A DNA stretch of 64,000 nucleotides, from NCBI RefSeq assembly GCF_017813355.1, contig NZ_JAGIYZ010000008.1:1-64000 (forward strand). Direction: 5' to 3'. Within the stretch, counting starts at the first letter, position 1, and every line of letters begins with the position of its first letter. Below, piece by piece: positions 3,278 through 37,797 of the stretch. Both the position numbers and the translations under genes were made by a program. The notes under the pieces are model-generated. The model worked only from the letters and a program-made list of their open reading frames with translations, had not been told where the DNA came from and made no database searches. The stretch comes from Roseomonas nitratireducens (GTDB lineage: Bacteria > Pseudomonadota > Alphaproteobacteria > Acetobacterales > Acetobacteraceae).

Positions 3278-3282
3278 TGGTC

Positions 3283-12510: not shown

Positions 12511-12538
12511 CGCAACGATCAGGAAGGCGAAGCACCCC

Positions 12539-14844: not shown

Positions 14845-15028
14845 TGGGGGCAACTACGCCTCCGTCACATCGTTCTTTCCGGGGCGGCGGCCGCACGACT
14901 GGCGCGATCGTCCGGCATTGCCGCGATGCCGTTCGGATTTCGATCATCGGACGTGGCGAAGTGCTGGCGCCGGCGCCCTTGGGACAGAACTGCGTGGGCG
15001 ATACGACCGTATAGGAAGATGAGGAGCC

Positions 15029-18790: not shown

Positions 18791-19026
18791 CCTCAATACC
18801 ATCCGTCTTGCCGCGGCGAAGGCTTGGCGCCGCCAGGCACAATGCTGTGACGGGCACGATGCGGAATGCGCGGCATCGCGGCGGAAGACGCTCCGGTCCC
18901 GCGCACGGGACGTGACGGCTCGCACGCACGCGAAACTCATTCGACCGTCGCGCGTTATCGGTCGGAGTGGCAGGGCTCCGCCTTGCCCATTGCGTGGTTC
19001 GGCGCGCCACAGGCAAGGAGGCCATC

Positions 19027-19596: not shown

Positions 19597-19664
19597 CCGC
19601 GCACGCCATGCCGGCACCGGCATGGCGTATTCCCCGTTAGGCGCCTTTATGACTGGAGATGTCC

Positions 19665-19979: not shown

Positions 19980-19985
19980 CAGCCC

Positions 19986-20435: not shown

Positions 20436-20471
20436 GCTCCGCCGCGTACAAGCCCCGGGGCGATGGGCGCG

Positions 20472-21524: not shown

Positions 21525-21542
21525 GATGCTTCGAGAGCGCGG

Positions 21543-21577
21543 CGCCTGCCGGACTGCCGCTGGCCGGCCGGCAGGCG
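21543..21577 (-). terminator. Hairpin between peptidoglycan-binding and AI-2E genes
   Basis: Perfect 10-bp stem CGCCTGCCGG/CCGGCAGGCG with a 15-base loop, located between the stop of the upstream minus-strand gene and the start of the AI-2E gene. No T-run is present. It may separate the two transcription units or stabilise the upstream mRNA. Confidence 0.45.
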
Positions 21578-21593
21578 GCACTCCCGAGGACCT

Positions 21594-22175: not shown

Positions 22176-22407
22176 CCTTCGCGCTCCCTGACGGCATGCT
22201 GCATGCGAAGAACGTCGAAGCCGCCGCGTGGTTGCATGGCGTTTCTCGTCACGCGCCACTCAGGCGGACTGCCCTGCGACCTGCTTCAGCGCGATCCCCA
22301 ACCTCTACTCGCTGCCGCCGACTTACCTCATGGGCGGAGCGGTTCTGCGGGGTCATGGCTAAATCGGCCGACACATCCGGAATCGTCGACAGACGCAGAA
22401 GGATCCC

Positions 22408-22930
22408 TTGAGTGGCCGGGTACACCGTCGGCCGAACGACGAAGGTGCCGTCATTGTCCAAGATGTTCCGGACCTGCGCATCGTCGAGCAGGCGACCCGG
22501 GACGCGGTCCAGGCACGCCTTGTCCGGGATGCCACCCCAAGGATGGACCCGGCGCGGCCGCACTTCTGGGACTGCCGTCGTCCCCAGCATCTTCTCACCG
22601 GCAAGGTCGTCTGCGCTCGCTGCGGCGCGCTCTTTGCGCCGACCGGCCCGGATTACCTCGCCTGCTGAGGTTGTAAGGTCGGCGGCTGCTGGAACGGGGC
22701 TTCGGTTCGAAGGGACCCTCTTGAGGGAGAGGTCCTGGAAGCGTTCAGCAATCGGCTCGTGGGCCCGGAACTAGTCGCGAGATTCGCGGACGAATTCGTG
22801 GCGACATGGAAGCGTCCATCGAAGGAGCAGTCGGGGGCGTCTGAGGCACATCGGACGGAACTGGCCGCGGTGGAACGCAAGATCGCGAACCTCGTCGAGG
22901 CGCTTGCGGAGGGCGTGGCTCGGGGAAGCC
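22408..22930 (+). pseudogene. C-terminal half of a large serine recombinase, one nonsense codon
   Basis: A single frame gives VQDVPDLRIVEQATRDAVQA, then RRPQHLLTGKVVCARCGALF and TGPDYLAC followed by TGA (22666-22668). It continues in the same frame with GCWNGASVRRDPLEGEVLEA, LVGPELVARFADEFVATW and a coiled-coil tail. This is the zinc-ribbon (CARC and later Cys residues) and coiled-coil region of large serine recombinases. The catalytic N-terminal half is absent here. A matching N-terminal half without this region lies at 37328-37797. Confidence 0.75.
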
Positions 22931-22973
22931 AACCTTGTCTGGGCGGCTTCGCAGGTCGCCCATCAGCGCCGTC

Positions 22974-23762
22974 TCAATGCAAAACGCCAAGGCTGCGGGC
23001 AAGCATGTATCCCGCAACCGCGAAAATGAGCCCGGCAAACACACGGGTCAGCGCCCCACGACGCCGCGACAGCGCCCGACCGGCGCGCGCACCGACCAGC
23101 CCGCCCAGCACTCCGCCCGCGACGAACACCGTCGCCAACGGCCAATTCACCAAGCCGGCGGCGGCATAGGTTCCGGCTGTTGTCACACCGAATGCGGTGA
23201 CGGCGACGAGTGAGGTGCCGATCGCCTGCAGCATCGGCATGCCCGTCGCGAAGATCAGACCTGGCACGATCAGAAACCCGCCGCCGATCCCGAAGAACCC
23301 GGACAGCGCACCGACGCCGATCCCGGTGCCGACCAGCGCCGGCGCATTGCCGCGGTTCAGGCGGACCCTTCGATCCACGCCGTCATCGCGCCGCCGCAGC
23401 ATCAGCACGGCCACAACCACCATCAGCATCGCGAAGGCGGCCAGCAGCGCCTCGCCATCCACCCGTCGACCCAGCGCCGACCCCGCAAAGGCTCCCCCAA
23501 CTCCAGCGGAGGCGAAGACCGAAGCACAGGGCCAGCGGACATTCCCTGCGCGGGCGTGGCCCACGACGCTCGCCGCGGCGTTAACCGCGACCGCGACCGC
23601 GCTGGTGCCGATCGCAACATGGGCATTTGGCACACCCACCAGATAGACCAGCAGCGGCACCGCCAGGATCGACCCTCCACCGCCCACCAGGCCCAGCGTG
23701 AAGCCGACCAGCGATCCGGAAGCACCACCGAGCAGCGCCTGCAACATTGAGAGATCGAACAT
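22974..23762 (-). CDS. TauE/SafE family anion permease
   Basis: 262 residues and eight predicted helices. Both TauE repeats are visible: GFTLGLVGGGGSILAVPLLV near the N-terminus and GFFGIGGGFLIVPGLIFATG in the second half. Members export sulfite, organosulfonates or other small anions. In BigR-type loci this gene accompanies the persulfide dioxygenase and rhodanese and is thought to remove sulfite. It lies downstream of, and probably in one transcript with, the rhodanese and the repressor gene. Confidence 0.88.
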   Translation of the reverse strand: MFDLSMLQALLGGASGSLVGFTLGLVGGGGSILAVPLLVYLVGVPNAHVAIGTSAVAVAVNAAASVVGHARAGNVRWPCASVFASAGVGGAFAGSALGRRVDGEALLAAFAMLMVVVAVLMLRRRDDGVDRRVRLNRGNAPALVGTGIGVGALSGFFGIGGGFLIVPGLIFATGMPMLQAIGTSLVAVTAFGVTTAGTYAAAGLVNWPLATVFVAGGVLGGLVGARAGRALSRRRGALTRVFAGLIFAVAGYMLARSLGVLH

Positions 23763-23780
23763 GACGTGGCGCCCGGTGAG

Positions 23781-24329
23781 CTATTCTGCGCCTACGACGT
23801 GAGATGCGGCCGGCACACGGTTCCAGGGCATCATCCGGAGCAGTCGCGCCATGCCGCAAGTGCCAGTCGCGCCGGCGAAGACAAGCCCGGCGCCGACGAA
23901 CCCGGACAGCGCGTAGAGCCACGGTGAGACCAGCGCACCGAGCACGACGCCAAGAACCACCAGGCTGCCTGCGGCGATCTGCACCTGGCGCATCAACTCA
24001 AGCGGCTGGCGGCGATCGGCTGCGACCGGAAGGCCAGCCTGCTTCCAGGCATCCAGCCCGCCCTCGACGATATAGGCCTCGCACACACCAACCTTTGCGC
24101 TCAGCCGATCTGAATGTCCGGCGGTGCGGGCACCGCTGCGGCAGTGGAACAGCACCGGCTTGCCGTCGTGCACGGCCAGTTCCGCCTCCTCCAATCGCGA
24201 CAGCGGCAGGCTCCGCGCGCCGGGGATCCGCTCGCGCGCATGCTCGTCCGGCTCGCGCACATCCACCAACGTTGCCCCGCCTTCGCGTAGCAGGGCGGCT
24301 GCGGCTGCGGGAGAAATCGTCTTCAGCAT
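23781..24329 (-). CDS. Rhodanese with C-terminal DUF2892-type membrane domain (YgaP-like)
   Basis: 182 residues. The rhodanese domain spans residues 1-100, with the DVREPDEHARERIPGARSLP substrate-side motif and the active loop HCRSGARTAG, whose Cys63 should carry the persulfide. Two hydrophobic helices follow (about 118-160), ending in GTCGMARLLRMMPWNR, the DUF2892 hallmark. It transfers sulfane sulfur at the inner membrane. It sits between the repressor and TauE genes with short gaps, as expected for a persulfide-handling operon. Confidence 0.9.
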   Translation of the reverse strand: MLKTISPAAAAALLREGGATLVDVREPDEHARERIPGARSLPLSRLEEAELAVHDGKPVLFHCRSGARTAGHSDRLSAKVGVCEAYIVEGGLDAWKQAGLPVAADRRQPLELMRQVQIAAGSLVVLGVVLGALVSPWLYALSGFVGAGLVFAGATGTCGMARLLRMMPWNRVPAASHVVGAE

Positions 24330-24353
24330 GGTCGTCGTCCTTTCGCGATCAGG

Positions 24354-24686
24354 TCAGTGGCCGGGTGGGCAGTAGAGGTCGCGCAGCAGCGCCAGGACGC
24401 TGACAGCCTTGGGATCGGCCAGGCGGTAGAACACCGCCTGCGCCTCCTTCCGGGTCGCCACCAGGCCATCCTCGCGGAGCATGGCGAGATGCTGGGAGAG
24501 GGCCGGCTGGGAGAGGCCGACAGCTTCCGCCAACGCGCTCACCGTCATCTCGCCCTCCCCGACCAGGTGACAGAGCAGGAGAAGGCGATTCGCATTGGCA
24601 AGCATGCGCAACAGCCGCGCCGCTTCCGTCGCCTTCTCCTGCAGGGCCCCGAGATCGCCGGGCGCTTCCATGGTTGCTGCACTCAT
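24354..24686 (-). CDS. bigR: ArsR-family persulfide-sensing repressor (BigR/SqrR type)
   Basis: 110 residues, winged-helix ArsR fold with recognition helix VGLSQPALSQHLAMLREDGL. Two cysteines, Cys39 (RLLLLCHLVGEGE) and Cys106 (LYCPPGH), occupy the positions of the sensing pair of BigR and SqrR, which form a tetrasulfide link in the presence of persulfide and release DNA. The metal-binding ELCVCDL motif of ArsR is absent. The ATG at 24686 is used; a TTG 18 bases upstream is the alternative. It is divergent from the persulfide dioxygenase gene it most likely represses. Confidence 0.87.
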   Translation of the reverse strand: MSAATMEAPGDLGALQEKATEAARLLRMLANANRLLLLCHLVGEGEMTVSALAEAVGLSQPALSQHLAMLREDGLVATRKEAQAVFYRLADPKAVSVLALLRDLYCPPGH

Positions 24687-24775
24687 CTCCGTGACCACTT
24701 TCAATAAGCTTGTGCTAATTAAGGGATACGTTATATGAAGTTCAAGCCCCGATGTTCGAGATCACGGAGGACACC
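24687..24775. promoter_or_regulatory. Divergent promoter/operator region of the persulfide locus
   Basis: The 89-bp gap between the repressor and the dioxygenase is strikingly AT-rich for this genome (AATAAGCTTGTGCTAATTAA and CGTTATATGAAG). TTATAT at 24731-24736 is a plausible -10 for the plus-strand gene, with a weak -35-like TTGTGC 15 bp upstream. BigR-family operators are AT-rich dyads; GCTTG (24708-24712) and CAAGC (24743-24747) flank an imperfect dyad here. Exact boundaries are inference. Confidence 0.45.
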
Positions 24776-25678
24776 ATGCAGACCCCTGAGATCCGCGCTT
24801 TTTTCGACGAGCCGACCAACACCGTCAGCTATCTCGCCTGGGACCCTGCGACGAAGATCGCTGCCGTCATCGACCCTGTGCTCGACTGGGATCACAAGTC
24901 CGGTACCGCCGACACGGCCTTCGCAGACCGCATTCTGAAGGCTGCCCAGCAGGAAGGCCTCGCCATCCGCTGGGTGCTGGAGACGCACGCGCATGCCGAT
25001 CACCTGACGGCGGCGCCCTACATCAAGGCGAAGACCGGCGCGCCGATCGGCATCGGCGAGCACATCAAGGACGTGCAGCGCATCTTCCGCCCGGTCTTCG
25101 ACGCCCGCGACGTCAAGCCCGAGGGCGGCGATTTCGACCGCCTGTTCAAGGACAACGAGCGGTTCATGCTCGGCTCGCTGGAAATCGAGGTACTGCACGT
25201 GCCCGGGCACACCCCGGCAGACGTCGCGTACCGCATTGGTCAGGACGTCCTCGTCGGCGACACCATCTTCATGCACGACTACGGCACGGCACGCGCCGAC
25301 TTTCCGGGTGGCGATGCGCACCAGCTCTGGCGCTCCATCCAGCGCCTGCTTGCGCTGCCGCCGGAAACCAGGCTCTGGATCTGCCATGACTACAAGGCGC
25401 CGGGCCGCGACCAGTTTGCGTGGCAGAGCACCGTAGCCGAGCAGCGGGCTCACAACCCGCACGTAAAGGACGGCACGACGGAGGCCGCATTCGTCGCCTT
25501 CCGCCAGCGGCGAGACAGCACGCTGGCCGCGCCGACGCTGCTGCTGCCGTCAATCCAGGTGAATATCCGTGCCGGCCGCTTCCCGGAAGCGGAGGCGAAT
25601 GGCGTTCGCTACCTGAAGATCCCTGTGAAGACGAAGGCGGGACACCCGGCAGTCTTCGGCGAGGAGCCGGCACGATGA
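24776..25678 (+). CDS. blh: MBL-fold persulfide dioxygenase (Blh/ETHE1-like)
   Basis: 300 residues. Metallo-beta-lactamase fold with THAHADHL (His71, His73, Asp75, His76), a further metal His in VLHVPGHTPADVAYR, the DTIF aspartate and ICHDYK. The single mononuclear iron site of this group oxidises glutathione persulfide to sulfite. The start is at MQTPEIRAFF, preceded by ACGGAGGACACC; an upstream in-frame Met adds eight residues but lacks a good ribosome site. It is divergent from the BigR-type repressor, as in the known bigR operons. Confidence 0.9.
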   Translation: MQTPEIRAFFDEPTNTVSYLAWDPATKIAAVIDPVLDWDHKSGTADTAFADRILKAAQQEGLAIRWVLETHAHADHLTAAPYIKAKTGAPIGIGEHIKDVQRIFRPVFDARDVKPEGGDFDRLFKDNERFMLGSLEIEVLHVPGHTPADVAYRIGQDVLVGDTIFMHDYGTARADFPGGDAHQLWRSIQRLLALPPETRLWICHDYKAPGRDQFAWQSTVAEQRAHNPHVKDGTTEAAFVAFRQRRDSTLAAPTLLLPSIQVNIRAGRFPEAEANGVRYLKIPVKTKAGHPAVFGEEPAR

Positions 25679-25760
25679 ACGGCAGATTCCAAGTGCTTTG
25701 CCCGGGGTGCGATGCCAGGAACCTGGCATCCGGCCCAGCACGGGATCGGTCGGCGACGCC

Positions 25761-25957
25761 TACCCTTCGGCATCCACCCCGACATGCGCCTTGAAGCCAT
25801 GCACCGAGGGGCGATTGGGATGCTTCACCCAGCGCGGGGTGAGCAGCCCGGAGACCGGGTGTCAGTCGATCAGAAACGATAGGCGCTCCAGGGCCGCGCC
25901 GCTTCGCGAGGTACCGTCCGGCGCCAGGGCCTCCTGGCCGATGGTTCGATGTGCCAT
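25761..25957 (-). pseudogene. IS5-family transposase remnant with nonsense codon and internal deletion
   Basis: On the minus strand, ATG at 25957 opens MAHRTIGQEALAPDG, then RSGAALERLSFLID and TGA where the family has Trp. It continues in frame with HPVSGLL and jumps directly to PRWVKHPNRPSVHGFKAHVG, normally far downstream in the same transposase, ending at TAG. A large internal deletion is therefore fused in frame. The flanking bases to 26232 hold nothing I recognise. Confidence 0.72.
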
Positions 25958-26232
25958 GCCCCCCGCTTCCTGCCTTGTGAAGCACAGAGAATCGCCCAGT
26001 ACGCCACGCGACAAGGCTTCCGCATACAGGTCTCATCATTGGTCCGCGCCGGCCAGCGGGCTTCCGGCGCCTTGATCAAGCGGGGCACGGCCATGCCGTA
26101 CACCCGGCTGCGCCCGCGCCGGCAAGTCGGCCCACTTACCTAGCGCAGGCTGCGTCTGCCCGACCTACGGGTTCATGGCTACTTCGGGCCATGCCCCAAT
26201 GAGACGACGCGTGCCGACCGCCACGGACACAG

Positions 26233-26382
26233 CTAAACGCCAGCGCGCCACCGGCGGGGGCAGGTTGCCGAGGGAAGAACGACGCGCGGTCCGATCATGA
26301 GGCCGCCCAGAGGCGAACTTGCCATGGGCCCGACGAAGAAGAGGCCGGTCTCGGGATCGGCACGCAGGAAGTCGAGAAGCAT
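26233..26382 (-). CDS. Short ORF coupled to the BASS gene, unidentified
   Basis: 49 codons beginning at an ATG that overlaps the BASS stop (TGATG) and ending at TAG. It encodes MLLDFLRADPETGLFFVGPM, then ASSPLGGLMIGPRVVLPSAT and a short Cys/Arg tail. I do not recognise it. The first 35 residues look protein-like while the rest does not, so it may be the start of a truncated downstream operon gene whose remainder was lost next to the IS5 remnant. Confidence 0.35.
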   Translation of the reverse strand: MLLDFLRADPETGLFFVGPMASSPLGGLMIGPRVVLPSATCPRRWRAGV

Positions 26383-27230
26383 CAGGCCGCCGGCCCCCGC
26401 CCGGTCATCCACACAACGAGCATGGCGAAGCCCACCATCAGCGGCAGCCCGAGCACCACCATGATCGCCGCCTGCTGGTCAGGCTCCGGCACGGCCAGCA
26501 ACGGCGCGATGGCAGCCCCGATGTTGCGCGTGGTCAGGCCGATGCTGAGCACGATCCTCTCCTCGTGCGGCAGGCCGAAGGCCAGCAGGTAGGTCACCGT
26601 GGCGACGGTCGCGAAGAACAGGCACTGCGCGGCAACGGCGAATGTGCCACCCAGCCCGAGCAGGCCATTGCCATAGATGACGACGCACAGCACCACCACG
26701 ACCAGCGTCGCGACGCCGGTCACCTTCTTGACCACCGGCTGCAGCGTGCCGGCGCGCGCGACCGATGCACGACGGATCGCCATGCCGATCATCATCGGTA
26801 TCAGCACCATGACCAGCAGCGGCCTGGCGACCGACCAGGCGCTCACGGTCAGGCCGGAGGTCAGCAACGGCACCGCCACGGGCATCACGATGACGGTGCC
26901 GACCGCCGTCAACAGCATGAAGGCCGCGGTGGAACCAAGGTCGCCATGGCCCTTGGCGACCAGCATCGGCACGAAGGGCGCGCACGGCGCCAGCCCCATC
27001 AGGATCAGGCCGAGCGCATAGGGCGCGTCGAGCGGCATGGCATGGGCGATGCCATAGGCCAGCCCGGGAATGAGCAGGAAGGCCCAGAGCAGCGTCAACA
27101 CGACGAAGCGCAGGTTGCGCAAACCCCGCAGGGCGTCCGCGATCTCGAGCCGCAGCCCCATGTCCATCAGGTTGCCGGCCATGAAGATCACCAGCGAGAT
27201 CTTCAGGGCGGGCATCAGCAGGTCTGCCAT
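26382..27230 (-). CDS. Bile acid:sodium symporter (BASS) family transporter
   Basis: 282 residues with nine to ten predicted helices. Family landmarks are the early LVIFMAGNLMDMGLRLEIAD and the paired core motifs GLILMGLAPCAPFVPMLVAK and IGLTTRNIGAAIAPLLAVPE (the second crossing-helix motif). BASS proteins import organic anions with sodium; bacterial substrates include bile acids, pyruvate-like acids and sulfated compounds. It follows the Mo-enzyme cluster on the same strand with an 18-bp gap and may supply or remove its substrate or product. Confidence 0.83.
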   Translation of the reverse strand: MADLLMPALKISLVIFMAGNLMDMGLRLEIADALRGLRNLRFVVLTLLWAFLLIPGLAYGIAHAMPLDAPYALGLILMGLAPCAPFVPMLVAKGHGDLGSTAAFMLLTAVGTVIVMPVAVPLLTSGLTVSAWSVARPLLVMVLIPMMIGMAIRRASVARAGTLQPVVKKVTGVATLVVVVLCVVIYGNGLLGLGGTFAVAAQCLFFATVATVTYLLAFGLPHEERIVLSIGLTTRNIGAAIAPLLAVPEPDQQAAIMVVLGLPLMVGFAMLVVWMTGRGPAA

Positions 27231-27248
27231 CGCATGTCCTCGCCGCGG

Positions 27249-30209
27249 TCAGGATGTCGCGGGGTGTCGCCCCCATCGCGGACGGTCGGCCCGGTCACGC
27301 GCGCAGGCCTGGCAGAGCTCGCGATCGAGCAGCGCCGCCATATGCTCGGGCAGGCGCGCGCGGATGAAGTCGCGATGCGCTGGCGTGCGCGTCGGCGCGC
27401 CGCACTCCACGCAGGTCAGCAGCGGCTGCGCCTTCACCACCGTGCCTGTGATGATAGTACGGCGGATGCCGTCGCGATCTTCGATCCGGATCGCCCCGGT
27501 CGGGCAGACCTGGGTGCAGGCGCCGCAGCCGATGCAACGATCCTCGGGCCGCTGGAAGTCGAAATAGGCGAGCCGCCCGGCGCCGGTGTCGCCAAGGCGC
27601 AGCGCCTCGATGCCCATCTCGCTGCACGCCGCCATGCACAGGCCGCAGCCGATGCACATGTCGCAGCGCAGGCAGCGGCGCACCTCGTCCTGTGCCTGGG
27701 CGACGGTCAGGCCCTCCTCGATCCGGATGTAGTTGCCTTCGCCGAGCACCTCCTCGACGCTCTTCGAGGCCATCACGGCGCGGGGGCCATGGCTGCGATC
27801 GGCGGCGGCGACCGGAAGCGGCGCCACCTCGCCGCGGCGGACGGGCCGGGCGACCGAGCCATCGGCGCTGCCGCCGCGCAGCCAGGCATCGATCCCTGCC
27901 GCGGCGATCTTGCCGGCGCGGATCGCCTCGACGACGGTGCGCGGCCCCTGCTGCGCATCGCCGCCGGCGAAGACGCCCGGGACCTTGGTCATCAGCGTCT
28001 TCGGATCGGCGACGATGTAGCCGCGGGTATTCTCGACCGCGCTGCCTTCGAGAAGGCCGAGATCGGTGCCCTGGCCGGCAGCGAGGAGCACGTCGTCCGC
28101 CGCGAGCGTCATCGGCCGCGCCGTGTCGAAGACCGGGGCGAAGCGGCCCGCCTCGTCCTTCACGCGCTCGCAGTAGTGGAAGACGACCTCGCCCTCCGCC
28201 TCGATACGGACCGGTCCCCAGCCGGCGCGCAGATGCACGCCTTCGGCGACGGCCTCCTCGATCTCGTGCGGGCTCGCCGGCATCTCGCGCCGCTTTTCGA
28301 GGCAGACGAGGTCGACATGCGTGGCGCCCTGGCGCAGCGCGGTCAGCGCGACGTCGATCGCGACGTTGCCGCCGCCGATCACCACCACGCGCGGCCCGAC
28401 CCGAACCTTTTCCCCGCTGCGCACCGCCCGCAGGAAGTCGATGCCGCCGCGCACGAGGTCATGGTGCACGCCCTCGATCGGAAGCAGCCGCGCCATCTGC
28501 GTGCCGAGGCCGAGATAGACGGCGTCGAATCCGCCTCGGAAATCCTCGAGGCTGCCGATCTTCGCCCCGGTGCGGATCGGGATGCCAAGCCGCTCGATCT
28601 CCCCGAGCTCCTGGTCCAGCAGTTCGGGCGGCAGCCGGTAGGCCGGGATGCCGTAGCGCAGCATTCCGCCGGCCTTCTCCTGCGCCTCGAAGACCTCGAC
28701 CTGGTGGCCGTGGGTGCGCAGGTAGTAGGCGGCCGTCAGCCCGGACGGGCCCGAGCCGATGACGCCGATGCGCTTGCCCGTGTCGGGCGCGATCTCCGGC
28801 AGCGGATATCCGCCGTTCGCAAGGCAGTGTTCCGCCGCCGTCGCCTTGAGCGGCCGGATGAAGACGGACCCGTCATGGCTGCCGCGGACGCAGGCGGATT
28901 CGCAGGGCGCCGGGCAAACCAGCCCGCAGGTCAGCGGCAGCGGATTGTCGCGCCGGATGACCTCGATCGTCGCGCGATAATCGCCATGGCCGAGATGCGC
29001 CATGAAGCTCGGGATGTCGATATTGGCCGGGCAGGTGCCGTGGCAGGGCGCGGCGGGCAGCGACAGGCACGCGCCCTCGGGGCAGGATTCCCGCCGCGCG
29101 TGGCTTTCCCACTGCGCCCGGAAATGCCGCAGCGAGGAGGCGAGCGGCCAGGCCGCGGCGAGCCCCTGCGTGGCTAGCTTCAGCGCGAGTTCGTCGAGCG
29201 CCTTCAGATGCCCGGCATCGCCGCGGCCGAGCGTGACCTCGGTGGCGAGGCGTGCCGCGCGCGCGAGCATCCCCCGTACCGGCGCAGCCTCGTCCTCCGC
29301 CAGCTGCCAGTGGCGATAGAGCGCGCGCCGCGTCTGCTTCACCATGCAGGTTCCTGGCGGCAGCACCATCGCGGTAGAGGGCACCGGCACGATGCCGGCC
29401 GCCGCCAGGGACAGCGGATCGGCGGCGATATCGGTGGCCGAGAGCGGCAGCGTGCCGCCGAGGCCGTCGTCGAAGACCAGGATAGGATCCTCGCCCTGGC
29501 CCTTGATGCCGCCGGTCCAGGACTCGATCTGCCGGCGCAGATTACTCGTGCGATCGAGTTCGACCAGGCCGCGCTGCTTCACGCCGCGCCGCAGCGTCAG
29601 CAACGATCCGTCGCGATCGCCGGCGCCGGCGAAGAGCCGGGCGATGCGGCACCATGTCTCGGGCGTGTGCACCAGGCGCGATGCATCGCCGTCTGGGCCT
29701 TCCGCCCAGCAGCCCGGCTTGCGGTCCCGAAGCACCTCGATGCGCTTGCGGGGGCCGGAGACCTGCGCCAGCGCGCGGATCGCATCGACGGCGTTGAGGA
29801 AGGGCGCTTCCCTGCCGGTGAGCTCGGGCGGCACGCGCAGTTCGATCGTGCCGCTGTCGCGCAGGCCTGCGGCGATCAGCAGCCCCTCGGCCAGCAGCCA
29901 GGGCGCGCGGGCGAGGACGGTCGCGGCGGCTTCGGCGCGTTCGTCGAAGGCGGTGGCGTCCACCACCAGGGTCGAGGGGCCATGGCCGCGCAGGAAGCGA
30001 CGCCATTCCAGATGCACCGGTTCCCCGCCGCCGCCACATTCGGCCAGGGACGCCCCCTGCAGCACCTGCAGCCGCTGCAGCGGTGACAGCGCGCGCGCAT
30101 GCGCATAGCCCGGCAGCGCCGCATCGAGCGTGGGTGCCGGCGGCGCGGCGCCGGACAGGCCGGCATCGCCGGCGGCGAGCCAGGCCGGCAGGGACGGCAG
30201 GTCGCTCAT
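27249..30209 (-). CDS. NuoF-like / GltD-like flavoprotein / ferredoxin fusion, electron-transfer subunit
   Basis: 986 residues. The N-terminal 370 or so resemble NuoF (LLAEGLLIAAGLRDSGTIEL, later GDAGHLKALDELALKLATQG) but lack the FMN glycine loop and the four-Cys N3 cluster motif. A GltD-type module follows: a Cys-rich linker (CHGTCPANIDIP, near 390), FAD motif GVIGSGPSGLTAAYYL (near 480), and nucleotide motif VVVIGGGNVAIDVALTALR (near 606). Then come two [4Fe-4S] motifs (CDMCIGCGLCMAACSEMG near 850 and CIGCGACTQVCPTGAI near 890) and a CxxC...CxxC C-terminus. It probably links NAD(P)H to the Fe-S and Mo subunits upstream. No signal peptide. Confidence 0.85.
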   Translation of the reverse strand: MSDLPSLPAWLAAGDAGLSGAAPPAPTLDAALPGYAHARALSPLQRLQVLQGASLAECGGGGEPVHLEWRRFLRGHGPSTLVVDATAFDERAEAAATVLARAPWLLAEGLLIAAGLRDSGTIELRVPPELTGREAPFLNAVDAIRALAQVSGPRKRIEVLRDRKPGCWAEGPDGDASRLVHTPETWCRIARLFAGAGDRDGSLLTLRRGVKQRGLVELDRTSNLRRQIESWTGGIKGQGEDPILVFDDGLGGTLPLSATDIAADPLSLAAAGIVPVPSTAMVLPPGTCMVKQTRRALYRHWQLAEDEAAPVRGMLARAARLATEVTLGRGDAGHLKALDELALKLATQGLAAAWPLASSLRHFRAQWESHARRESCPEGACLSLPAAPCHGTCPANIDIPSFMAHLGHGDYRATIEVIRRDNPLPLTCGLVCPAPCESACVRGSHDGSVFIRPLKATAAEHCLANGGYPLPEIAPDTGKRIGVIGSGPSGLTAAYYLRTHGHQVEVFEAQEKAGGMLRYGIPAYRLPPELLDQELGEIERLGIPIRTGAKIGSLEDFRGGFDAVYLGLGTQMARLLPIEGVHHDLVRGGIDFLRAVRSGEKVRVGPRVVVIGGGNVAIDVALTALRQGATHVDLVCLEKRREMPASPHEIEEAVAEGVHLRAGWGPVRIEAEGEVVFHYCERVKDEAGRFAPVFDTARPMTLAADDVLLAAGQGTDLGLLEGSAVENTRGYIVADPKTLMTKVPGVFAGGDAQQGPRTVVEAIRAGKIAAAGIDAWLRGGSADGSVARPVRRGEVAPLPVAAADRSHGPRAVMASKSVEEVLGEGNYIRIEEGLTVAQAQDEVRRCLRCDMCIGCGLCMAACSEMGIEALRLGDTGAGRLAYFDFQRPEDRCIGCGACTQVCPTGAIRIEDRDGIRRTIITGTVVKAQPLLTCVECGAPTRTPAHRDFIRARLPEHMAALLDRELCQACARDRADRPRWGRHPATS

Positions 30210-30239
30210 CGGGTCATCCTCCGCGCGATGCGCCAGGTG

Positions 30240-30764
30240 CTACTCGCCACCGAGGCCATCCGAAGGCTCGGCCAACAGCATCCTCGCGTAGCGTTCGCGG
30301 CGCGGATCGGGCAGTTCGGTCGCAGGGCCGAAGGACAGGCAGCCGGTCACGCATTTGGTGACGCAGGCAGGCTTCAGCCCGGCATCGACGCGGTCCATGC
30401 AGTAGTCGCACTTGACCACCTTGTTGGTGGACGGATCCCATTGCGGCACGCCCCAGGGGCAGGCGGCGATGCAGCTCTTGCAGCCCACGCAGAGGCTCGC
30501 CTCGACATGGACGATGCCGTCCTTCTCGCGCTGCTGCATTGCGCCCGTCGGGCAGGCCCGGACGCACCACGCATCCTCGCAGTGGAAGCAGGGCATGAAG
30601 ACGTGGCGCATGCGCGGTTGGCCATCGACATCCACGGGGCCGAGCGAGATGATCTTGCAGGGCGACGGGCCGGGTCCGAGGTCCTTGTTCGTCTTGCAGT
30701 GTACCTCGCAGGCCTGGCAGCCGATGCAGTTCGCCTCGTCGTGTCGCAGCGCGTACTTGCTCAT
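30240..30764 (-). CDS. Four-cluster ferredoxin subunit (DmsB/PhsB/FdhB type)
   Basis: 174 residues. Four [4Fe-4S] motif groups are visible: CIGCQACEVHC, CFHCEDAWCVRACPTGA, CVGCKSCIAACPWG and CDYCMDR with CVTKCVTGC. This is the standard electron-transfer beta subunit of DMSO reductase-family enzymes. There is no membrane anchor or signal. The ATG lies three bases after the stop of the catalytic subunit, and the flavoprotein gene follows 30 bp downstream, so the three are a single unit. Confidence 0.92.
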   Translation of the reverse strand: MSKYALRHDEANCIGCQACEVHCKTNKDLGPGPSPCKIISLGPVDVDGQPRMRHVFMPCFHCEDAWCVRACPTGAMQQREKDGIVHVEASLCVGCKSCIAACPWGVPQWDPSTNKVVKCDYCMDRVDAGLKPACVTKCVTGCLSFGPATELPDPRRERYARMLLAEPSDGLGGE

Positions 30765-30767
30765 CGC

Positions 30768-32918
30768 TCAGGCTCCTTCCGCCGCGGCGGGCCGGACACG
30801 GACGATGGTCTCGGTCAGCGTGCAGCCGCCGCCGGCCGGGTCGAAGGCGTAGAGCTTGCCGTGCTGCAGGCGCTGGTCGGCCACGCCGACGCCCCTGGCG
30901 CGCGTCGCGACCGGCACGGTGGCGCCATAGCCGTGCAGCATGAACACCGCGTCCGGGTGGATCCAGGGCGTGACCTTCGCCGGCAGGCGCCCGACATAGG
31001 CGCCCCCGCCGCTGACCTCGACCTCCTCGCCGTCGTTGATCGCGAGCGCGGCCGCGCGGTCGGGATGGATCCACAGCTCCTGTCTCGGCGCCGCTTCCCG
31101 CAGCAGCGGATTGTTCAGGGACTGGCCATGCGCCAGCGTCGCCGGCCGGCCGAACAGCAGGGTGAAGCTGTCGCCTTCCGGCGCGGCCTTCGGTTCATAG
31201 GGCGGCATGAAGGGCAGGTCCGCCTGCCGAAGAACCGCGCTGTCGATCTCGATCTTGCCCGAAGGCGTCGGGAAGCGCAGCGCGTCGCGCGGCATCAGCT
31301 TCGGCGCGGTGGCCAGGGCAACCACGCCGGCCTTGCGCATCTCCGCCACCGTGACGCCGGTGCCTTCGAGCTGGTAGTTCCAGATTTCCTCGACAGTCTC
31401 GAAGTCGAGCGCATCCTTCACGCCCATCCGGCGCAGGATCTCGCGGAAGATCCACCAAGCGGGCCTGCTGTCGAAGCGCGGCGCGACCGCTTGGTCGCGC
31501 ATGAGGAAGACAGGCACCGGGCCGGGCATACCGGCGAGGATGTTGGCGCGTTCGAGATAGGTGGATTCCGGCAGGATCACATCCGAGTACCAACCCGTCT
31601 CGGAATAGCGGACGTCGATCGAGACCAGCAGGTTCAGCTTGTCGAGCGCGCTCTTCAGTGCTTCGGCATCGGGCAGGCTGGTGATGGGATCGTGCCGGTA
31701 GGCGAAATAGGCGCCGACGCCGTAGGGCTGGCCGGTCTCCATGGCGGCAAAGAGCTGGTGCACCATGCCGATCGACGGATCCCAGGACGGGCGCGTCGTG
31801 CCGGCGCCGTCCACCCGAGCCTCCGTCACCTTGGGCACGCGGGCGGATAGCGGCTTGAGGCTCTCGCGGCCAAAGGCCTCGGGCGACTTCGCGATGATCA
31901 GGCCGCCCGGTACCTCGATGCTGCCCATCAGCGCGTTCAGGATCAGCGCCGTGCGGGTGACGTGGAAGGATTGCCGGTGGCGCGCCGTCATCCAGCCCGG
32001 ATGAAAGATCACGCGCGGCGCCTGGGCCGCGATCTCCCGCACCAGCGCGCGCAGCTCGGCGGCGGGTACGCCGGTATGCTGTTCCTGCCACTCCGGCGTG
32101 GTGTCCCGTACCGCCTCCCGCAGCACGTCCATGCCGCTGACGAAGCGCGCGACGAAGTCCTTGTCATGGACGTCCTGGGCCAGCACCTCATGGATCAGCG
32201 CGAGGTTCAGCGCATAGTCGCTGTTCGGCCGCACCTTCCAGTAGCGGGTCGCCTTGCAGGCGGTGCCGCTCGCGCGTGGATCGATGTAGGTGACGCGCAA
32301 GCCGTTGGCCACGGCGTCCATGAACGCCTTGGCTTCCTTCACCATCAGCGATTCGACGATGTTGCGCCCGTAGAGCACCAGGTGGCGCGCATTGCGGTAG
32401 TCCGGGATCAGCCCCGCGTGGCTGAAGCCGAACATGCTGCGCGCCGCGTTGTGCGCGTTCCCGCCGCAGGTTGCGTCATGGTTGAAGTAGTTGGGCGAGC
32501 CCAGCGCCGCCAGGAACGTCTTGGTCAGATCCGAGAAGGGGCCGCCGCGGTCCGACAGGGCGATGCCGCGCGGGCCGTGCGCATCGATCGTCTCGCGCAG
32601 CCTGTCGGCGATGTGGTCGAGCGCTTCCTCCCAGGACACGCGCCGCCAGCGGCCGCTGCCGCGTTCGCCGATGCGCATCAGCGGCGTCTGCGGCCGCTCG
32701 TCATCGGCGTATTCCAGCGGCAGGCCGGCCGACCCCTTGGCGCAGAGGCTCGCGCCGATCGCCGCATCGTGCCGGTTGCCCTGGATCCAGGTGGCCTTGC
32801 CGTCCTCGACCGTCACTTCGATCGGGCAGCGGACCGAACACATGCCGCACATGCTGTAGACCGTGCGCCGGCCGGGCGTTCCGACTCCGCGGGCGTTGGG
32901 TGCCGTGGTCGCGTTCAT
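30768..32918 (-). CDS. Molybdopterin (bis-PGD) oxidoreductase, PhsA/PsrA-like, cytoplasmic
   Basis: 716 residues. The [4Fe-4S] site is C24-x2-C27-x3-C31-x27-C59. The domain order is that of the DMSO reductase family, ending in a C-terminal molydopterin dinucleotide-binding domain (LLFGRPATLAHGQSLNNPLL and RVRPAAAEGA at the end). Cys151 in NHDATCGGNAHNA is the likely Mo/W ligand, as in thiosulfate/polysulfide reductases and formate dehydrogenases. The start MNATTAPN has the ribosome site AGGGAG. Unlike PhsA/PsrA there is no Tat signal, and no NrfD-type anchor gene is present. The substrate is unassigned; inorganic sulfur or an oxyanion is plausible given the neighbours. Confidence 0.88.
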   Translation of the reverse strand: MNATTAPNARGVGTPGRRTVYSMCGMCSVRCPIEVTVEDGKATWIQGNRHDAAIGASLCAKGSAGLPLEYADDERPQTPLMRIGERGSGRWRRVSWEEALDHIADRLRETIDAHGPRGIALSDRGGPFSDLTKTFLAALGSPNYFNHDATCGGNAHNAARSMFGFSHAGLIPDYRNARHLVLYGRNIVESLMVKEAKAFMDAVANGLRVTYIDPRASGTACKATRYWKVRPNSDYALNLALIHEVLAQDVHDKDFVARFVSGMDVLREAVRDTTPEWQEQHTGVPAAELRALVREIAAQAPRVIFHPGWMTARHRQSFHVTRTALILNALMGSIEVPGGLIIAKSPEAFGRESLKPLSARVPKVTEARVDGAGTTRPSWDPSIGMVHQLFAAMETGQPYGVGAYFAYRHDPITSLPDAEALKSALDKLNLLVSIDVRYSETGWYSDVILPESTYLERANILAGMPGPVPVFLMRDQAVAPRFDSRPAWWIFREILRRMGVKDALDFETVEEIWNYQLEGTGVTVAEMRKAGVVALATAPKLMPRDALRFPTPSGKIEIDSAVLRQADLPFMPPYEPKAAPEGDSFTLLFGRPATLAHGQSLNNPLLREAAPRQELWIHPDRAAALAINDGEEVEVSGGGAYVGRLPAKVTPWIHPDAVFMLHGYGATVPVATRARGVGVADQRLQHGKLYAFDPAGGGCTLTETIVRVRPAAAEGA

Positions 32919-33085
32919 TGCGATCTCCCTGCGCGGGCTCCGTGCGCTCGCCATCCAGTAGGGCCCGCGGCCCGGCGCCGGCGATGATCTGCGTCAAGCC
33001 GACGCACCGCGCCGCATGGATCCCGCGCAGCACATGCTGCTCCCTTGCCGCTCGGACGACGACGGACGACGACGCACCTGGCATG

Positions 33086-34120
33086 TCATGCGGCGCGTTC
33101 TGGCGCGGGCCCGACAGGCCGGTCGCGGCGGAACGCCTCCAGCACATAGAGCGCGAGGATCGCGTAGATCGCCGCCATGCCGAGCTCGCCGAGCCGATCG
33201 ACGAAACCCGCGCTGGCATTCTCGTCCGTGGGGCTCATCGCGCCCCCGAAAAGGATCAGCATGACGCTCAGCGCCGCGCCGGCGAGCGGCGCGACCCTGG
33301 TGCCCGACGTCATCACGCGCGCGAAGACCAGATGCACCGGGAGCATCAGCGCCGCCAGGAAGACGAACAGCGGCACCATGGCGACCAGCTCGTAGAGCAG
33401 CAGCGCGATCACGCCACCTGCGACGTTCGCTGCCAGGATCGCGCCACTGATCGAGAGGGTGCGCGCCAGGCTGAGATGCAGCGCGAAGATCGCGATGTAG
33501 AGCGGCGTGTGGATGTTGGTCCAGTCGAAGGCGAAATAGGCGACGCTGTAGGACCAGGTGATCAGCGCGACCTGCCAGCCGCGCCAGGCGGCCTCCTCGG
33601 CCGGCAGCGGTTCCCGCGGCCCGGGCGCGGCCTCGCCGGGCGCCGGCGGCATCAGCGCGAACATCGCAGACGCGACCACCAGCGAGAGCCCGATGTTCCA
33701 CACGAAGGACGCCGCGAGCTGCCGCGCGACCTCCGGCGCCACCTTGGCACCCAAAGGCACCAGCAGCACGGCGCACAGGATCACCACCACGATCAGGGTG
33801 TTGCCTCCGCGCAGATGGGTTCGAAGGGTCCAGACCAGCACCGGCAGCAGGGCCGCCATGAACAGCACCGGGTAGATGCGCGCGACACCGCCGGCCAGGA
33901 GGCAGGCGAGGGCGATGAGGCACGTCGCCGCCATTACCCCCGCGGCTTCCCGCAGCGTCGGCGCGCGCGACCCCTGCAGCAGCGGCGCGGCGAAGACCGG
34001 CGCGAGGTAGGCCAGCAGCCAGTTGATGTAGATCGCCACCAGGAAGACGACGGTGATGCCGAAGCCGAGCCGCAGCGCGCGCCGGTCGGCCAGCCGCGGA
34101 TCCGGCGAATCAGTAGGCAT
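33086..34120 (-). CDS. DUF2955 / fusaric acid resistance-like membrane protein
   Basis: 344 residues in two sets of hydrophobic helices (about 20-160 and 190-330), the two-half layout of FUSC/DUF2955 proteins. These act as inner-membrane components of aromatic-acid or drug efflux systems with a HlyD-type partner. The first codons overlap the 3' end of the HlyD gene by 11 bp, so translation is coupled. No outer-membrane factor gene is nearby. Confidence 0.8.
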   Translation of the reverse strand: MPTDSPDPRLADRRALRLGFGITVVFLVAIYINWLLAYLAPVFAAPLLQGSRAPTLREAAGVMAATCLIALACLLAGGVARIYPVLFMAALLPVLVWTLRTHLRGGNTLIVVVILCAVLLVPLGAKVAPEVARQLAASFVWNIGLSLVVASAMFALMPPAPGEAAPGPREPLPAEEAAWRGWQVALITWSYSVAYFAFDWTNIHTPLYIAIFALHLSLARTLSISGAILAANVAGGVIALLLYELVAMVPLFVFLAALMLPVHLVFARVMTSGTRVAPLAGAALSVMLILFGGAMSPTDENASAGFVDRLGELGMAAIYAILALYVLEAFRRDRPVGPAPERAA

Positions 34121-35177
34121 AGGAGATCCAGCTCATGAAGCGGATCCAGGCGGCGGCGAGCCCGTTCAGGACCGCATTGCCGCCGGTATAGACGACGACA
34201 TCGGCCTGGCCGTTCACCTGGCGCCGGATGTCCGCTGCCTCGCTGCCACCGCCATAGCCTTCCATGCGTATCCGAACCGGGAAGCGCTGCGGGTCGCGCA
34301 TCCAGCCCGAGACCTCGGGCGGCTTCGGCAAGCCGTCGGAGGACGTGCCCGCATGCGGTGCCGCGGCGGCGATGGTGATGCTGGTGACGGTGCCCTGGAA
34401 GATCCGGCCCGGATAGACGTCGAGCGAAAGCTCCGCCGCGTTGCCGACGGCGATGCGGCCGAGGTTGTTCTCGGTCATGTAGGCCTCGACCCAGACCTCC
34501 TCGAAGGAGACGAAGGTCATCAGCCGCTGGCCGGCCGGTGCGAAGGTTCCTTCGGTGATCTGAAGGTCCACCACGGCACCGCGGCCAGGCGCGCGCAACT
34601 CGGTCCAGCGCAGGTTGATCTCGGCGAGGCCCAGCGCCGCGATGGCCGCCTGGATCCGCGCATTGTCCGCCCCTGTGGCGCCAAGCTGCTGGCGCGCGCG
34701 CTCCAGCTCCGCCTCGGCGGCCGTGACCCGGCCCTGCGCGCTCAGCAGCTGCGCCTGCGCCTGGTCGGCGGCGGCGCGTGTTGCGATGCCCTGGCGCGCG
34801 AGTGTGAAGGTGCGTTCACTCTGCGACTGGGTGTTCTCGAGCTGGGCGCGCGCCTGCGCGAGTTCGGCCTGCGCCGCCTCAACCTGGGCGGAACTCGCGC
34901 CCACCTCCTGCGTCGCGAGCTGGAGATCCGAGCGCGCCTTCTCGACCTGCAGCAGGAAGGGTTGCGGGTCGATCCGCGCGAGCAGCTGCCCGGGCTCGAC
35001 AACCTGCCCGTTGGTCACCGGCACGGCGGAGACGTAGCCCGCGACCTGCGGCACCATCGCGACCACCAGCGCCTTCACGCGTGCATTGCCCGTGTAGGGC
35101 GTGATGCGGTCGGCGACGATGTACCAGGCGAAGATGGCGATCGCGACGGCGGTCGAGATTCGGATGGCGGTCTTCAT
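34110..35177 (-). CDS. HlyD/EmrA-type membrane fusion protein
   Basis: 355 residues. One N-terminal helix (about 5-24), a lipoyl half-motif (VPQVAGYVSAVPVTNGQVVE), a long coiled-coil hairpin (about 70-180, Ala/Gln/Glu-rich), then LRAPGRGAVVDLQITEGTFA and a barrel domain. The start is at MKTAIRISTA; the frame is open 81 codons further upstream, but that part is Arg/Pro-rich and without homology. It works with the DUF2955 protein and is probably controlled by the AraC-type gene just upstream. Confidence 0.87.
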   Translation of the reverse strand: MKTAIRISTAVAIAIFAWYIVADRITPYTGNARVKALVVAMVPQVAGYVSAVPVTNGQVVEPGQLLARIDPQPFLLQVEKARSDLQLATQEVGASSAQVEAAQAELAQARAQLENTQSQSERTFTLARQGIATRAAADQAQAQLLSAQGRVTAAEAELERARQQLGATGADNARIQAAIAALGLAEINLRWTELRAPGRGAVVDLQITEGTFAPAGQRLMTFVSFEEVWVEAYMTENNLGRIAVGNAAELSLDVYPGRIFQGTVTSITIAAAAPHAGTSSDGLPKPPEVSGWMRDPQRFPVRIRMEGYGGGSEAADIRRQVNGQADVVVYTGGNAVLNGLAAAWIRFMSWISYAY

Positions 35178-35307
35178 GGCGGCTTTGGCCTCGAGGCGTG
35201 CGTCGGCTGGGTGATCGGCAGGCGAAGGCCCGACTTTATGGGAAGGGGTCCGCTGATGCCGCTGCGTTCGCCACTGTAGCGCGAACCGACACGTGTTCCT
35301 GATAGCG

Positions 35308-36270
35308 TTAGGGGCGGCGTTGCTCGGGCGGCGCTGCGCTGCTCCTGCCATTGGCCTTAGCGAGCGTGTCCGTCGGCGTCTCCCCGAAGAGCGTACGGTA
35401 TTCCCGAGTGAATTGCCCAAGGTGCCAGAAGCCGAGGTCGAGCGCAGTGGTCTTGACCAGCGCGGTCGCGCCCTGCGGCCCGGCCAGCGCGCAGCGCACC
35501 AGGTTCAGCCTGCGGACGCAAAGATAGCGATGCACGCTCATGCGATAGACGGCGGCGAAGGCAGACGTCAGGAACCGTTCGCTGACGCCGAGCGCGGCAG
35601 CAATCTCCTGCGTGTAGACGGCGCAGCGGAGCGCGGCCGAGAGGACATCCTCCGCCGCCTTGACTACGCGCACGCGGCGGTGGAGCAGCAGGGCGCGATG
35701 CCGACCCTGCTCCATACGGCAGGCACGCATTGCCGATGACTTGGCCCAGGGCCTCGATCAGCGCATCCGGCACCGTGCCGGCGCGCGCCGCAGAAGGTCC
35801 GGCAGGGCGAAGAACCCCGCCTCGGCGCGGAGCCAGGCCTCGCCGCCGAAGGCCGCGAAGGCATCGTCGTCCATGATGATCCCGGACCAGCGCTGGGGGC
35901 CGTCCATTGTCACATGCATTTCCGCCCCGGGCTTCACGAAGACGCCCTGTCCTTCGGAGAAGGCAAGGCCGTTCACCCGCAGCCCCGATGTGAGGCTACC
36001 CCAGGGAAACAGGATTCCGCAGGCGCGCGGGAGCATCGCGCCGCGCGCAATATGCGCGTCGTCCGTTGCGTCATGGACCCGGAAGCGGCCGAGATCCACG
36101 AAGGCGAGACGGCTCCGGTAGCTGTCGTCCCGCGCGATGGGGATCGATTCGAGATTCGCGTCGCGTTGCGCTTCGGCCATGTCCTCGGGGCAGGTGAAGC
36201 GGCCCGCCCAGACGCTGGGCGCGGGCGGCAGGGAGTACGCCTCTCTGGATGAGATCACTGTCGAGGTCAT
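35308..36270 (-). pseudogene. AraC-family regulator, disrupted in the linker
   Basis: The N-terminal cupin-like half (MTSTVISSREAYSLPPAPSV onward, about 165 codons) and the C-terminal AraC HTH half (VSERFLTSAFAAVYRMSVHR, DLGFWHLGQFTREYRTLFGE) lie in the same frame but are separated by TGA (near 35758). The stretch between them reads as sensible protein in another frame (VPDALIEALGQVIGNACLPY). Two compensating indels within about 80 bp explain this best. It is either a recent pseudogene or a sequencing error. It would have regulated the efflux pair downstream. Confidence 0.75.
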
Positions 36271-36359
36271 GTCTGTTGAGTGTAGCGGTTGCCGCGCATC
36301 GGCAGAACGGCGTCACCAGAATATGCATGTGACCGAGGCATCGGTGGCGTACGGCGCGC

Positions 36360-36662
36360 TCAGCCCGACCGGGTGATCAGGCCGATGATCTGCACCGCGA
36401 TCAGCTTCACGATGGTGGCCGAGGGGAAGATCATTTCGCAGCCGATGTACGGCTGCTCCGTCGGCGCCATCCGTGTGGCAAATACGAGGATGGCCGGGTT
36501 GCCCTTCGCCCCGGAGGCGACGCCGAGAATGTTGTCACAGGGCAGCCGCAACAGGTAGTCGCCGATGCTGAGGATGATCACCGCCGTGGTCAGCACCACC
36601 AGGGCGAAGATGATCAGCAGCAGCGGCCCTTGCGAGGCCACGGTAGTGACGAAGGTCTGCAT
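36360..36662 (-). pseudogene. C-terminal fragment of an AspT/YidE-like transporter
   Basis: 100 codons containing two hydrophobic helices and CDNILGVASGAKGNPAILVF with ATRMAPTEQP and MIFPSATIVKLIAVQIIG. This is the tail of the second repeat in the aspartate:alanine-exchanger (Asp-Al_Ex) family. The rest of the roughly 550-residue protein is absent; upstream sequence switches to an unrelated tyrosine-recombinase remnant on the other strand. Not functional as it stands. Confidence 0.68.
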
Positions 36663-36698
36663 CGATTTGATGTCGGCAAGGGCTATGGCGGCGGGCGG

Positions 36699-37331
36699 AT
36701 GAATGTGCGCGACGCCGCCCTGCTTGGCCTGCTCGCCGCGCATGCGCCCCGTATCCGCTCCATCGCGGCGATGGAGATCGGGTAGCACATCCGGCGCACC
36801 GATACCGGCTACCAGATCCATTTCGGCGAGCAGGACACGAAGACCGAGGGGTACGTGACCTACGACATGCACCCCGAGCTTGTTCCAGTGTTCGATCGCT
36901 ACCTCTCGTCCGTTCGCCCGACCCAGCCGGGCAGCGCCTGCACCGCCGCGCTCTGGATCGGGACCAGGGGCAAGGCGCTGTTCACGCTCGACCTCGGCAA
37001 GGTTGTCCGTCGCCGAACGAAGCGCTGGTTTGGGCGCGCGGAGGGGCCGCACTGGTTCAGGAAATGCCTCCGCACGACGGCCTCCATGCTGTCTCCGGAA
37101 CTGGCGCTCGATGCCGGTGTTGCCCTTGGCCACAGCCCTCAGGTCTCGATCGACCACTACCTCAAGTCGCGCGGCACGGAGGCGCTTCGCCGTCATGGCG
37201 CACGGATCTCTCGGCTGCGGCGCGAAACGCGCGTGCTCGCCGAGCGGTTCTACCGGGAACGCGACGACACCAACGGGCAGCGGGTGGGGCATGATCGGCC
37301 CGGGCGAATCGTCAGAGGGGCTTCGCCATGA
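36699..37331 (+). pseudogene. Tyrosine recombinase (phage integrase family) remnant
   Basis: One frame with an in-frame TAG (36783-36785). Before it: MNVRDAALLGLLAAHAPRIR. After it: GYQIHFGEQDTKTEGYVTYD, the box-II-like GPHWFRKCLRTTASM, and GHSPQVSIDHYLKSRGTEAL, which should contain the catalytic Tyr. The N-terminal arm- and core-binding domains are missing. The stop overlaps the ATG of a serine recombinase (ATGA), so the two were once adjacent cargo of one mobile element. Confidence 0.75.
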
Positions 37332-37797
37332 GTCAGCACGTTGCCATCTACGCCCGGTACGCTCGGAGAACCAGCGCGAGGCCTCGATCGAGGACCAGTT
37401 GCGCATCTGCCGCGCCCGCGCCGCGCGCGAGGGCTGGACCGTCGTGGGGGAATTCTCCGACGCGGCGATCTCAGGCACCAAGGAGAAGCGCCCGGGTTTC
37501 GTCGCCCTGCGGGATGCCGCCCGCGCCGGCAAGTGCGACGTCATCCTCGCCGAGAGCCTCGACCGCTTCTCCCGCGACCTCGAGCACGTCGCGGCCTTCT
37601 ATAAGCAGGTGACCTTCTGCCGCGTGAAGCTCGTCACCCTCGCCGAAGGCGAGATCTCCGACTTCCATGTCGGGGTGAAGGGCGCCATGGGCGCGCTCTA
37701 CCTCAAGGACCTCGCGGCCAAGACCCATCGCGGCCTGGAAGGCAGGCTGCGCAAGGGACACTGCATCACCACGCCCGCCTACGGCTACCGCGTCGTC
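37328..37797 (+). pseudogene. N-terminal half of a large serine recombinase, frameshifted at the active-site serine
   Basis: Starts MSQHVAIYARY, then a one-base loss at about 37361. Family members read YARYSSENQRE, and the sequence TAC GCTCG GAG fits TAC AGC TCG GAG minus one A, which falls in a conserved Ser codon. The other frame then gives ENQREASIEDQLRICRARAA, LAESLDRFSRDLEHVAAFYK and GALYLKDLAAKTHRGLEGRL, ending at YGYRVVR. At 37798 it changes abruptly into the copied GMC sequence. Confidence 0.85.

Follow-up and report, generated by a model that had tools for sequence, protein, structure and literature searches.

An anchorless PhsA/PsrA-type oxidoreductase operon with a fused flavoprotein, carried on a genomic island of Roseomonas nitratireducens

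Introduction

How would a molybdenum- or tungsten-dependent oxidoreductase of the PhsA/PsrA type receive its electrons if it were neither exported nor anchored to the membrane, and what would it do in the cytoplasm? This question is raised by an operon of Roseomonas nitratireducens, which we studied in a stretch of 64,000 nucleotides (contig NZ_JAGIYZ010000008.1 of assembly GCF_017813355.1, positions 1 to 64,000; hereafter, the window). The Psr and Phs systems covered in the available parts of PMC12142623 and PMC3949148 are periplasmic. What the sequence of the window and its relatives reveals is a single operon on the (-) strand, belonging to a distinct MopB subfamily, with neither a twin-arginine translocation (Tat) signal nor a local anchor, with lost NuoF motifs and an NADH-type residue in its flavoprotein, with relatives distributed among sulfur organisms, and inserted together with an island. 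Its three genes are:

30768..32918, (-) strand: catalytic subunit, PhsA/PsrA-type MopB, 716 aa (728 aa from an alternative start at 32954)
30240..30764, (-) strand: ferredoxin subunit, four-cluster, DmsB/PsrB-like, 174 aa
27249..30209, (-) strand: fusion flavoprotein, NuoF-like + GltD-like + 2x[4Fe-4S], 986 aa

An original prediction made from this stretch had proposed a three-gene operon without Tat signal or anchor, which our analysis confirms. Since both features were looked for and neither was found, we do not file the operon as PhsABC. Instead, we give about even chances to its products forming a soluble cytoplasmic NADH:thiosulfate (sulfane-sulfur) oxidoreductase, that is, a PhsAB variant with a new electron module.

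Results

A catalytic clade without export signal or nearby anchor

The catalytic subunit carries the [4Fe-4S] ligands C36, C39, C43 and C71 and a candidate Mo ligand, C163 (728-aa numbering); its closest solved structure is PsrA, and it scores under the cut-off of the PhsA model. A maximum-likelihood tree with 54 rows places it in a clade of 39 (support 100/100) that is separate from PhsA, PsrA and the proteins that we label MOLY-like (below). This clade joins PhsA and PsrA in one group of 45 (100/100), with E. coli and two Tat-bearing proteins from our phylum sample on the PhsA side, and Thermus and two MOLY-like proteins on the PsrA side. Because the program flags long branches meeting among the distant references, we do not rely on the order of the deep groups. 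Ten of the 20 paralog and control loci examined are in the tree (L089-L093, L098-L101 and L003 were left out; L and G numbers are our handles for loci and genomes), and the incomplete relatives L029, L061 and L063-L067 were excluded. Among the references included, the window protein does not fall inside a characterised clade of the same make-up, in line with the original prediction; those PhsA proteins of Desulfovibrionaceae for which some functional data exist lie outside this sample and may fall inside the clade. A Tat-like motif ahead of the Fe-S motif was found in none of 38 relatives and not at the start of the window protein, and in all five PhsA/PsrA/MOLY-like controls. Five residues (R136, W321, R325, D422 and H666) are invariant in 39/39 clade members. 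The alignment used for folding held 26 of the 38 full-length relatives plus the window protein.

No anchor gene was found in the window operon, a statement that does not extend to a distant cytochrome b, which was not searched for. NrfD and paralogs were searched in the host and 11 other genomes. Nothing in the host exceeded the NrfD cut-off (a single match of 20.9 bits vs. 25.8), and the other 11 genomes do have NrfD genes, none of them within ~12 kb of MopB on its contig. The nearest is that of G494, at ~12 kb and close to dsrAB; G501 has both genes on one contig, ~500 kb apart, and the remaining nine genomes have NrfD on contigs other than that of MopB. This absence holds only locally, given that several of the contigs with MopB are short.

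A recurrent gene pair with exchangeable electron partners

Scanning contigs with six peptide patterns of the window MopB returned at least 45 loci, a lower bound that favours close relatives because the patterns were taken from the window protein. Burkholderiales, Rhodocyclaceae, Sulfurisoma, Thiorhodococcus, Chromatium and a metagenome-assembled genome (MAG) of Boseongicola have proteins 70-78% identical to that of the window; a Desulfarculaceae MAG stands at 58%, and Nitrospirota, Desulfobulbaceae, Desulfocapsa, Desulfovibrionaceae and others range over 44-53%. The short fragments L066 and L067 match at 61 and 69%. None of 98 other relatives of the host, 34 of them from the same genus, has a match at E<=1e-60, and no orthologue was found when 397 other genomes were sampled from the phylum, where the matches at E<=1e-70 are two Tat-bearing PsrA-type proteins only. 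In the plasmid collection, neither the operon DNA nor the fusion was matched over 80% or more by any record, and the best MopB matches listed there were canonical phsA at ~31-33%.

A ferredoxin gene follows MopB within 200 bp in 38/45 loci, and the fusion comes next in ten (L023-L031 and L065; some loci are cut by contig ends), that is, the three-gene order recurs. The fusion holders are Pseudomonadota plus one Desulfarculaceae, and their tree rows make up a single sub-clade of nine (100/100). Elsewhere, other genes take the third position: nuo genes (nuoA, or nuoB/nuoD/nuoI) in five Nitrospirota loci (L034, L036, L037, L044 and L045), a 2Fe-2S/Fe-S protein plus a NuoF-tail/GltD protein in L043 and L046, and a GltD-ferredoxin protein in L040 and L041. 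Judging by gene order, the electron partners of the MopB pair are swapped between lineages, and in these Nitrospirota the pair may dock on parts of complex I.

TauE/SafE, as two split genes or one longer gene, is found in 29/45 loci at no more than 6 kb from MopB, and this makes it more conserved than the BASS transporter, which the original prediction had suggested as possibly serving the enzyme and which we rejected as a core partner, since it occurs in two of the 45 loci, L025 and (as a fragment) L061. The TauE/SafE upstream of MopB is split in two genes in L026 (6210-7937) and its counterparts in Nitrospirota and Rhodocyclaceae, the first half bearing an N-terminal extension of ~280 residues; Desulfobulbaceae have one longer gene.

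A flavoprotein with a degenerate NuoF-like domain

Residues 1-385 of the fusion are NuoF-like, with the fold kept and the FMN, NADH and cluster motifs lost (30.4 bits with the NuoF model against a cut-off of 558.65, which the host's own NuoF passes at 640.8). A GltD-like domain (predicted to use FAD and NADH) follows at ~386-785 and a predicted 2x[4Fe-4S] part at ~845-910; the best NCBIfam model is PRK12771 (498.5 bits, cut-off 516). Because the NuoF cofactor motifs are missing from 9/9 aligned full-length fusions, NADH probably does not enter through the NuoF-like domain, and we rejected this domain both as the entry point and as a bifurcation site. The GltD domain is the likely entry instead: its sequence has the acidic residue of the NAD-dependent PreT at the position where GltD has arginine, i.e., an NADH-type rather than NADPH-type residue.

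Two loci carry additional genes beside the fusion. A second, diverged fusion-like protein (36% identity to that of the window) stands directly after the first on the Desulfarculaceae contig (L030:9470-11662). In a MAG from Rhodocyclaceae (L026:14699-17774), the fusion is followed at ~1 kb by another MopB (26%), which has its own ferredoxin and a Tat-like N-terminus.

Metabolic setting

The search for dsrA and soxB covered the host and, of the 45 loci, the genomes of 28. dsrA exceeded the cut-off in 26 of these 29 genomes, as compared to 50/299 in a phylum sample; G504 had partial matches only, and nothing reached the cut-off in G508. The association spans Chromatiaceae, beta-proteobacteria, Nitrospirota and Desulfobacterota. 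soxB was over the cut-off in 6/29, all six among the eight fusion-bearing genomes searched.

Neighbouring genes and the island

The other features of the window considered here are:

3274..37786, no strand: island holding the operon, 34.5 kb, with direct repeats at 2589-3273 and 37787-38473
33086..34120, (-) strand: DUF2955 protein, upstream of the operon
26382..27230, (-) strand: BASS-family transporter, 18 bp downstream of the fusion
24752..25678, (+) strand: metallo-beta-lactamase-fold protein, persulfide-dioxygenase-like (top NCBIfam model Blh, under its cut-off)
24354..24704, (-) strand: ArsR-family repressor (BigR is the second-best model, under its cut-off)
23781..24329, (-) strand: rhodanese with a YgaP-like transmembrane part
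22974..23762, (-) strand: TauE/SafE family exporter

In L025, a 51% relative of the DUF2955 protein is also upstream of the operon, and a 60% relative of the BASS transporter comes after the fusion. No TorD/DmsD-type chaperone was found among the window neighbours scanned.

The direct repeats of the island (687 aligned columns, 98.5%) correspond to the 3' end of a GMC oxidoreductase gene, the island has a G+C of 0.68-0.69 vs. 0.735-0.74, and a same-genus relative, G017, preserves the empty site: its locus L106 matches window positions 1098-3273 and 37798-40039 with a single repeat copy. By these marks, the host gained the operon on this 34.5-kb island, which carries TauE and the persulfide genes as well. 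The right repeat contains the end of a frame (36880-37872) that has a serine-recombinase catalytic (Resolvase) domain; the remainder of this frame is not seen there. An open reading frame of 2060 residues, repetitive and VCBS/RTX-like in appearance, occupies 5845-12027, also on the island.

Discussion

The operon thus appears to encode a soluble, cytoplasmic, NAD(P)H-linked enzyme, probably with an inorganic sulfur substrate, as the original prediction had it; nothing that we found points to selenium or another oxyanion, which it had also considered. From the evidence above we infer that the subunits form a complex, as well as its cofactors, substrate and direction. NADH would reduce the FAD in the GltD-like domain by hydride transfer, and electrons would pass through the Fe-S clusters of the fusion to the four-cluster ferredoxin and on to the [4Fe-4S] cluster and the Mo/W-bisPGD (the bis-pyranopterin guanine dinucleotide cofactor) of the catalytic subunit, where thiosulfate would be reduced to sulfide and sulfite. 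The NuoF-like domain would serve as a scaffold, being the putative remnant of an Nfn/Stn-type module minus its FMN, NADH and cluster sites; having lost these sites, it would neither accept NADH nor bifurcate. Sulfite might leave through the TauE/SafE exporter, and sulfide might be assimilated or taken care of by the adjoining persulfide genes. As for what the enzyme does in this host, assimilation of thiosulfate or the handling of persulfides can only be guessed at.

Several points weigh against thiosulfate reduction by NADH as proposed here. The reaction is uphill at standard state (about -402 vs. -320 mV). The five invariant positions of the clade are H/K, R/H, W/F, N and R in six PhsA/PsrA/MOLY-like controls, so the substrate is not readable from sequence; some of them align with positions presumably near Mo in PsrA, and we treat the five as alignment facts only. 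The ferredoxin gene is on the opposite strand in L056 and none was found in L057, and TauE was not seen within 6 kb in 16/45 loci, several of them cut by contig ends. In the host itself neither dsrA nor soxB was found over the cut-off, and both associations are inflated by lineage sharing, the dsr co-occurrence reflecting shared descent in part. No biochemistry of the fusion, nor any paper on it, was found in the literature searched, which mostly did not extend to subscription journals. TauE may import rather than export, as proposed for sulfite with a TauE homolog (in the available part of PMC3949148), and the PhsA proteins of Desulfolithobacter were scarce under thiosulfate disproportionation, according to the part of PMC9751629 available.

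Alternatively, the same wiring might act on polysulfide, persulfide or tetrathionate, making the enzyme a cytoplasmic NADH-dependent sulfane-sulfur reductase. This is unlikely but deserves serious consideration, given PsrA as the closest solved structure, the rhodanese and persulfide-dioxygenase-like genes that adjoin in the window, and the statement that PhsA/PsrA sequence does not tell the substrate (in the accessible text of PMC13047784). The TauE association, however, suggests sulfite as a product, and the functional hints published for likely relatives concern thiosulfate: phsAB of D. alaskensis showed fitness values of -0.79 and -0.30 on thiosulfate (PMC4215793), and O. marinus PhsA overexpressed in E. 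coli gave more H2S from thiosulfate (PMC10989961; both sources seen in part). A distinctly doubtful reading is that the enzyme runs oxidatively, joining sulfide and sulfite to thiosulfate and reducing NAD+. The fusion holders Sulfurisoma, Thiorhodococcus and Chromatium are sulfur oxidisers, the standard potential makes NAD+ reduction downhill, seven of the eight fusion-bearing genomes searched have dsrA over the cut-off (the eighth has partial matches) and six have soxB, and the pair adjoins nuo genes in some Nitrospirota; yet the same core occurs in Desulfobulbaceae and Desulfovibrionaceae, and low cellular sulfite and sulfide favour reduction. A more speculative extension, to which we give little credence, is an NAD+-coupled, thiosulfate-forming (from sulfide + sulfite) enzyme of the Dsr world, whose portable cytoplasmic MopB-ferredoxin core would supply sulfur oxidisers with NADH without reverse electron flow and would be mobile enough to be passed to non-Dsr bacteria. 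If true, the partner of the core would differ by lineage: subunits of complex I in some, in others a NuoF-tail/GltD module that bears cofactors, or a de-bifurcated fusion of a dead NuoF with GltD.

Two other explanations were considered. The MopB superfamily is diverse and the invariant residues of the clade are unlike those of PhsA and PsrA, which would suit arsenate, selenate, formate or an organic compound as the substrate; we regard this as improbable in view of the placement of the clade, its distribution in sulfur organisms, and the TauE, SulP and persulfide-gene neighbours. It is least probable of all that the fusion serves the ferredoxin or another partner (an NADH-ferredoxin oxidoreductase next to an unrelated reductase), with the MopB pair receiving its electrons elsewhere. 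Many relatives do have MopB and ferredoxin without any fusion, but the three-gene order in ten of the 45 loci, the common clade of the nine fusion rows, and the analogous flavoproteins that follow the pair in other lineages (GltD-Fd in L040 and L041, NuoF-tail/GltD in L043 and L046) argue against a separate role.

For the reading that we favour, the NADH-dependent thiosulfate oxidoreductase, the locus offers a concrete soluble donor (a flavoprotein of NADH type), a clade-wide signature that differs from periplasmic PhsA/PsrA, and alternative donors in other lineages; therefore, the question becomes testable. It also presents a respiratory-type flavin module kept as an apparently cofactor-free scaffold.

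Comparison with known systems

No paper describing this exact make-up was found in the literature searched, in agreement with the original prediction. The catalytic subunit does have published company: 'PhsAB lacking subunit C' was already noted in Desulfobulbaceae (PMC9751629, PMC13047784 and PMC7117923, each seen in part) and is probably the same clade as the window MopB. Desulfolithobacter is described as having PhsA-1 and PhsB-1 without subunit C, with tags that adjoin Nuo (GF1_30490 and 30500, Nuo at 30510 and 30520), and PhsAB is said to have received no functional analysis up to that report, as far as its available text goes (PMC9751629). Relatives of cable bacteria are given as having Phs/PsrAB only (PMC13047784, in part), and a Desulfobulbus epibiont expresses phsAB, with a TauE/SafE permease among the marked transcripts (PMC7117923, in part). 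In Desulfobulbaceae loci of our set, such as L047, L050, L060 and L062, MopB and ferredoxin likewise occur with no adjacent anchor seen; the fusion is present only on the window side of this comparison. Of the Desulfovibrionaceae, L056 and L057 fall inside the clade, and the genome of L057 has no further match at E<=1e-20; phsA is also reported for Pseudodesulfovibrio type strains (PMC11505543, in part).

With PhsABC and PsrABC, the operon has in common the MopB subfamily neighbourhood, a DmsB-like four-cluster partner, Cys at the Mo-ligand place, and the A-B gene order, whereas the window clade has no Tat signal, no nearby PhsC/NrfD anchor, other invariant residues, and a cytoplasmic electron donor. 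The MOLY cluster, MolyABC, as defined in the accessible part of PMC12998232, shares MopB plus ferredoxin without a membrane anchor and occurs in sulfur-disproportionating lineages, but is said to be exported and to have a TorD-type chaperone, unlike the window protein with its missing Tat motif. In Desulfogranum and Desulfopila, the MOLY-like loci belong to a different clade and combine a Tat motif with a neighbouring chaperone gene of the Nitrate_red_del (TorD-type) family; we rejected membership of the window operon in this cluster on Tat, chaperone and tree position.

On the side of the electron module, NfnABC (9bov, 9n5u) and StnABC (8oh5) have, like the fusion, a GltD-like FAD/NAD(P)H subunit with Fe-S clusters; the window differs in having a single fused chain, a NuoF-like part that lacks the motifs for flavin, NADH and clusters, and a PhsA-like neighbour. 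Finally, GltD, PreT, AegA and PRK12771-type proteins share with the fusion the FAD/NAD(P) core with N-terminal Fe-S clusters, to which the fusion adds a dead NuoF domain, and its NADH-type residue is that of PreT, not that of GltD.
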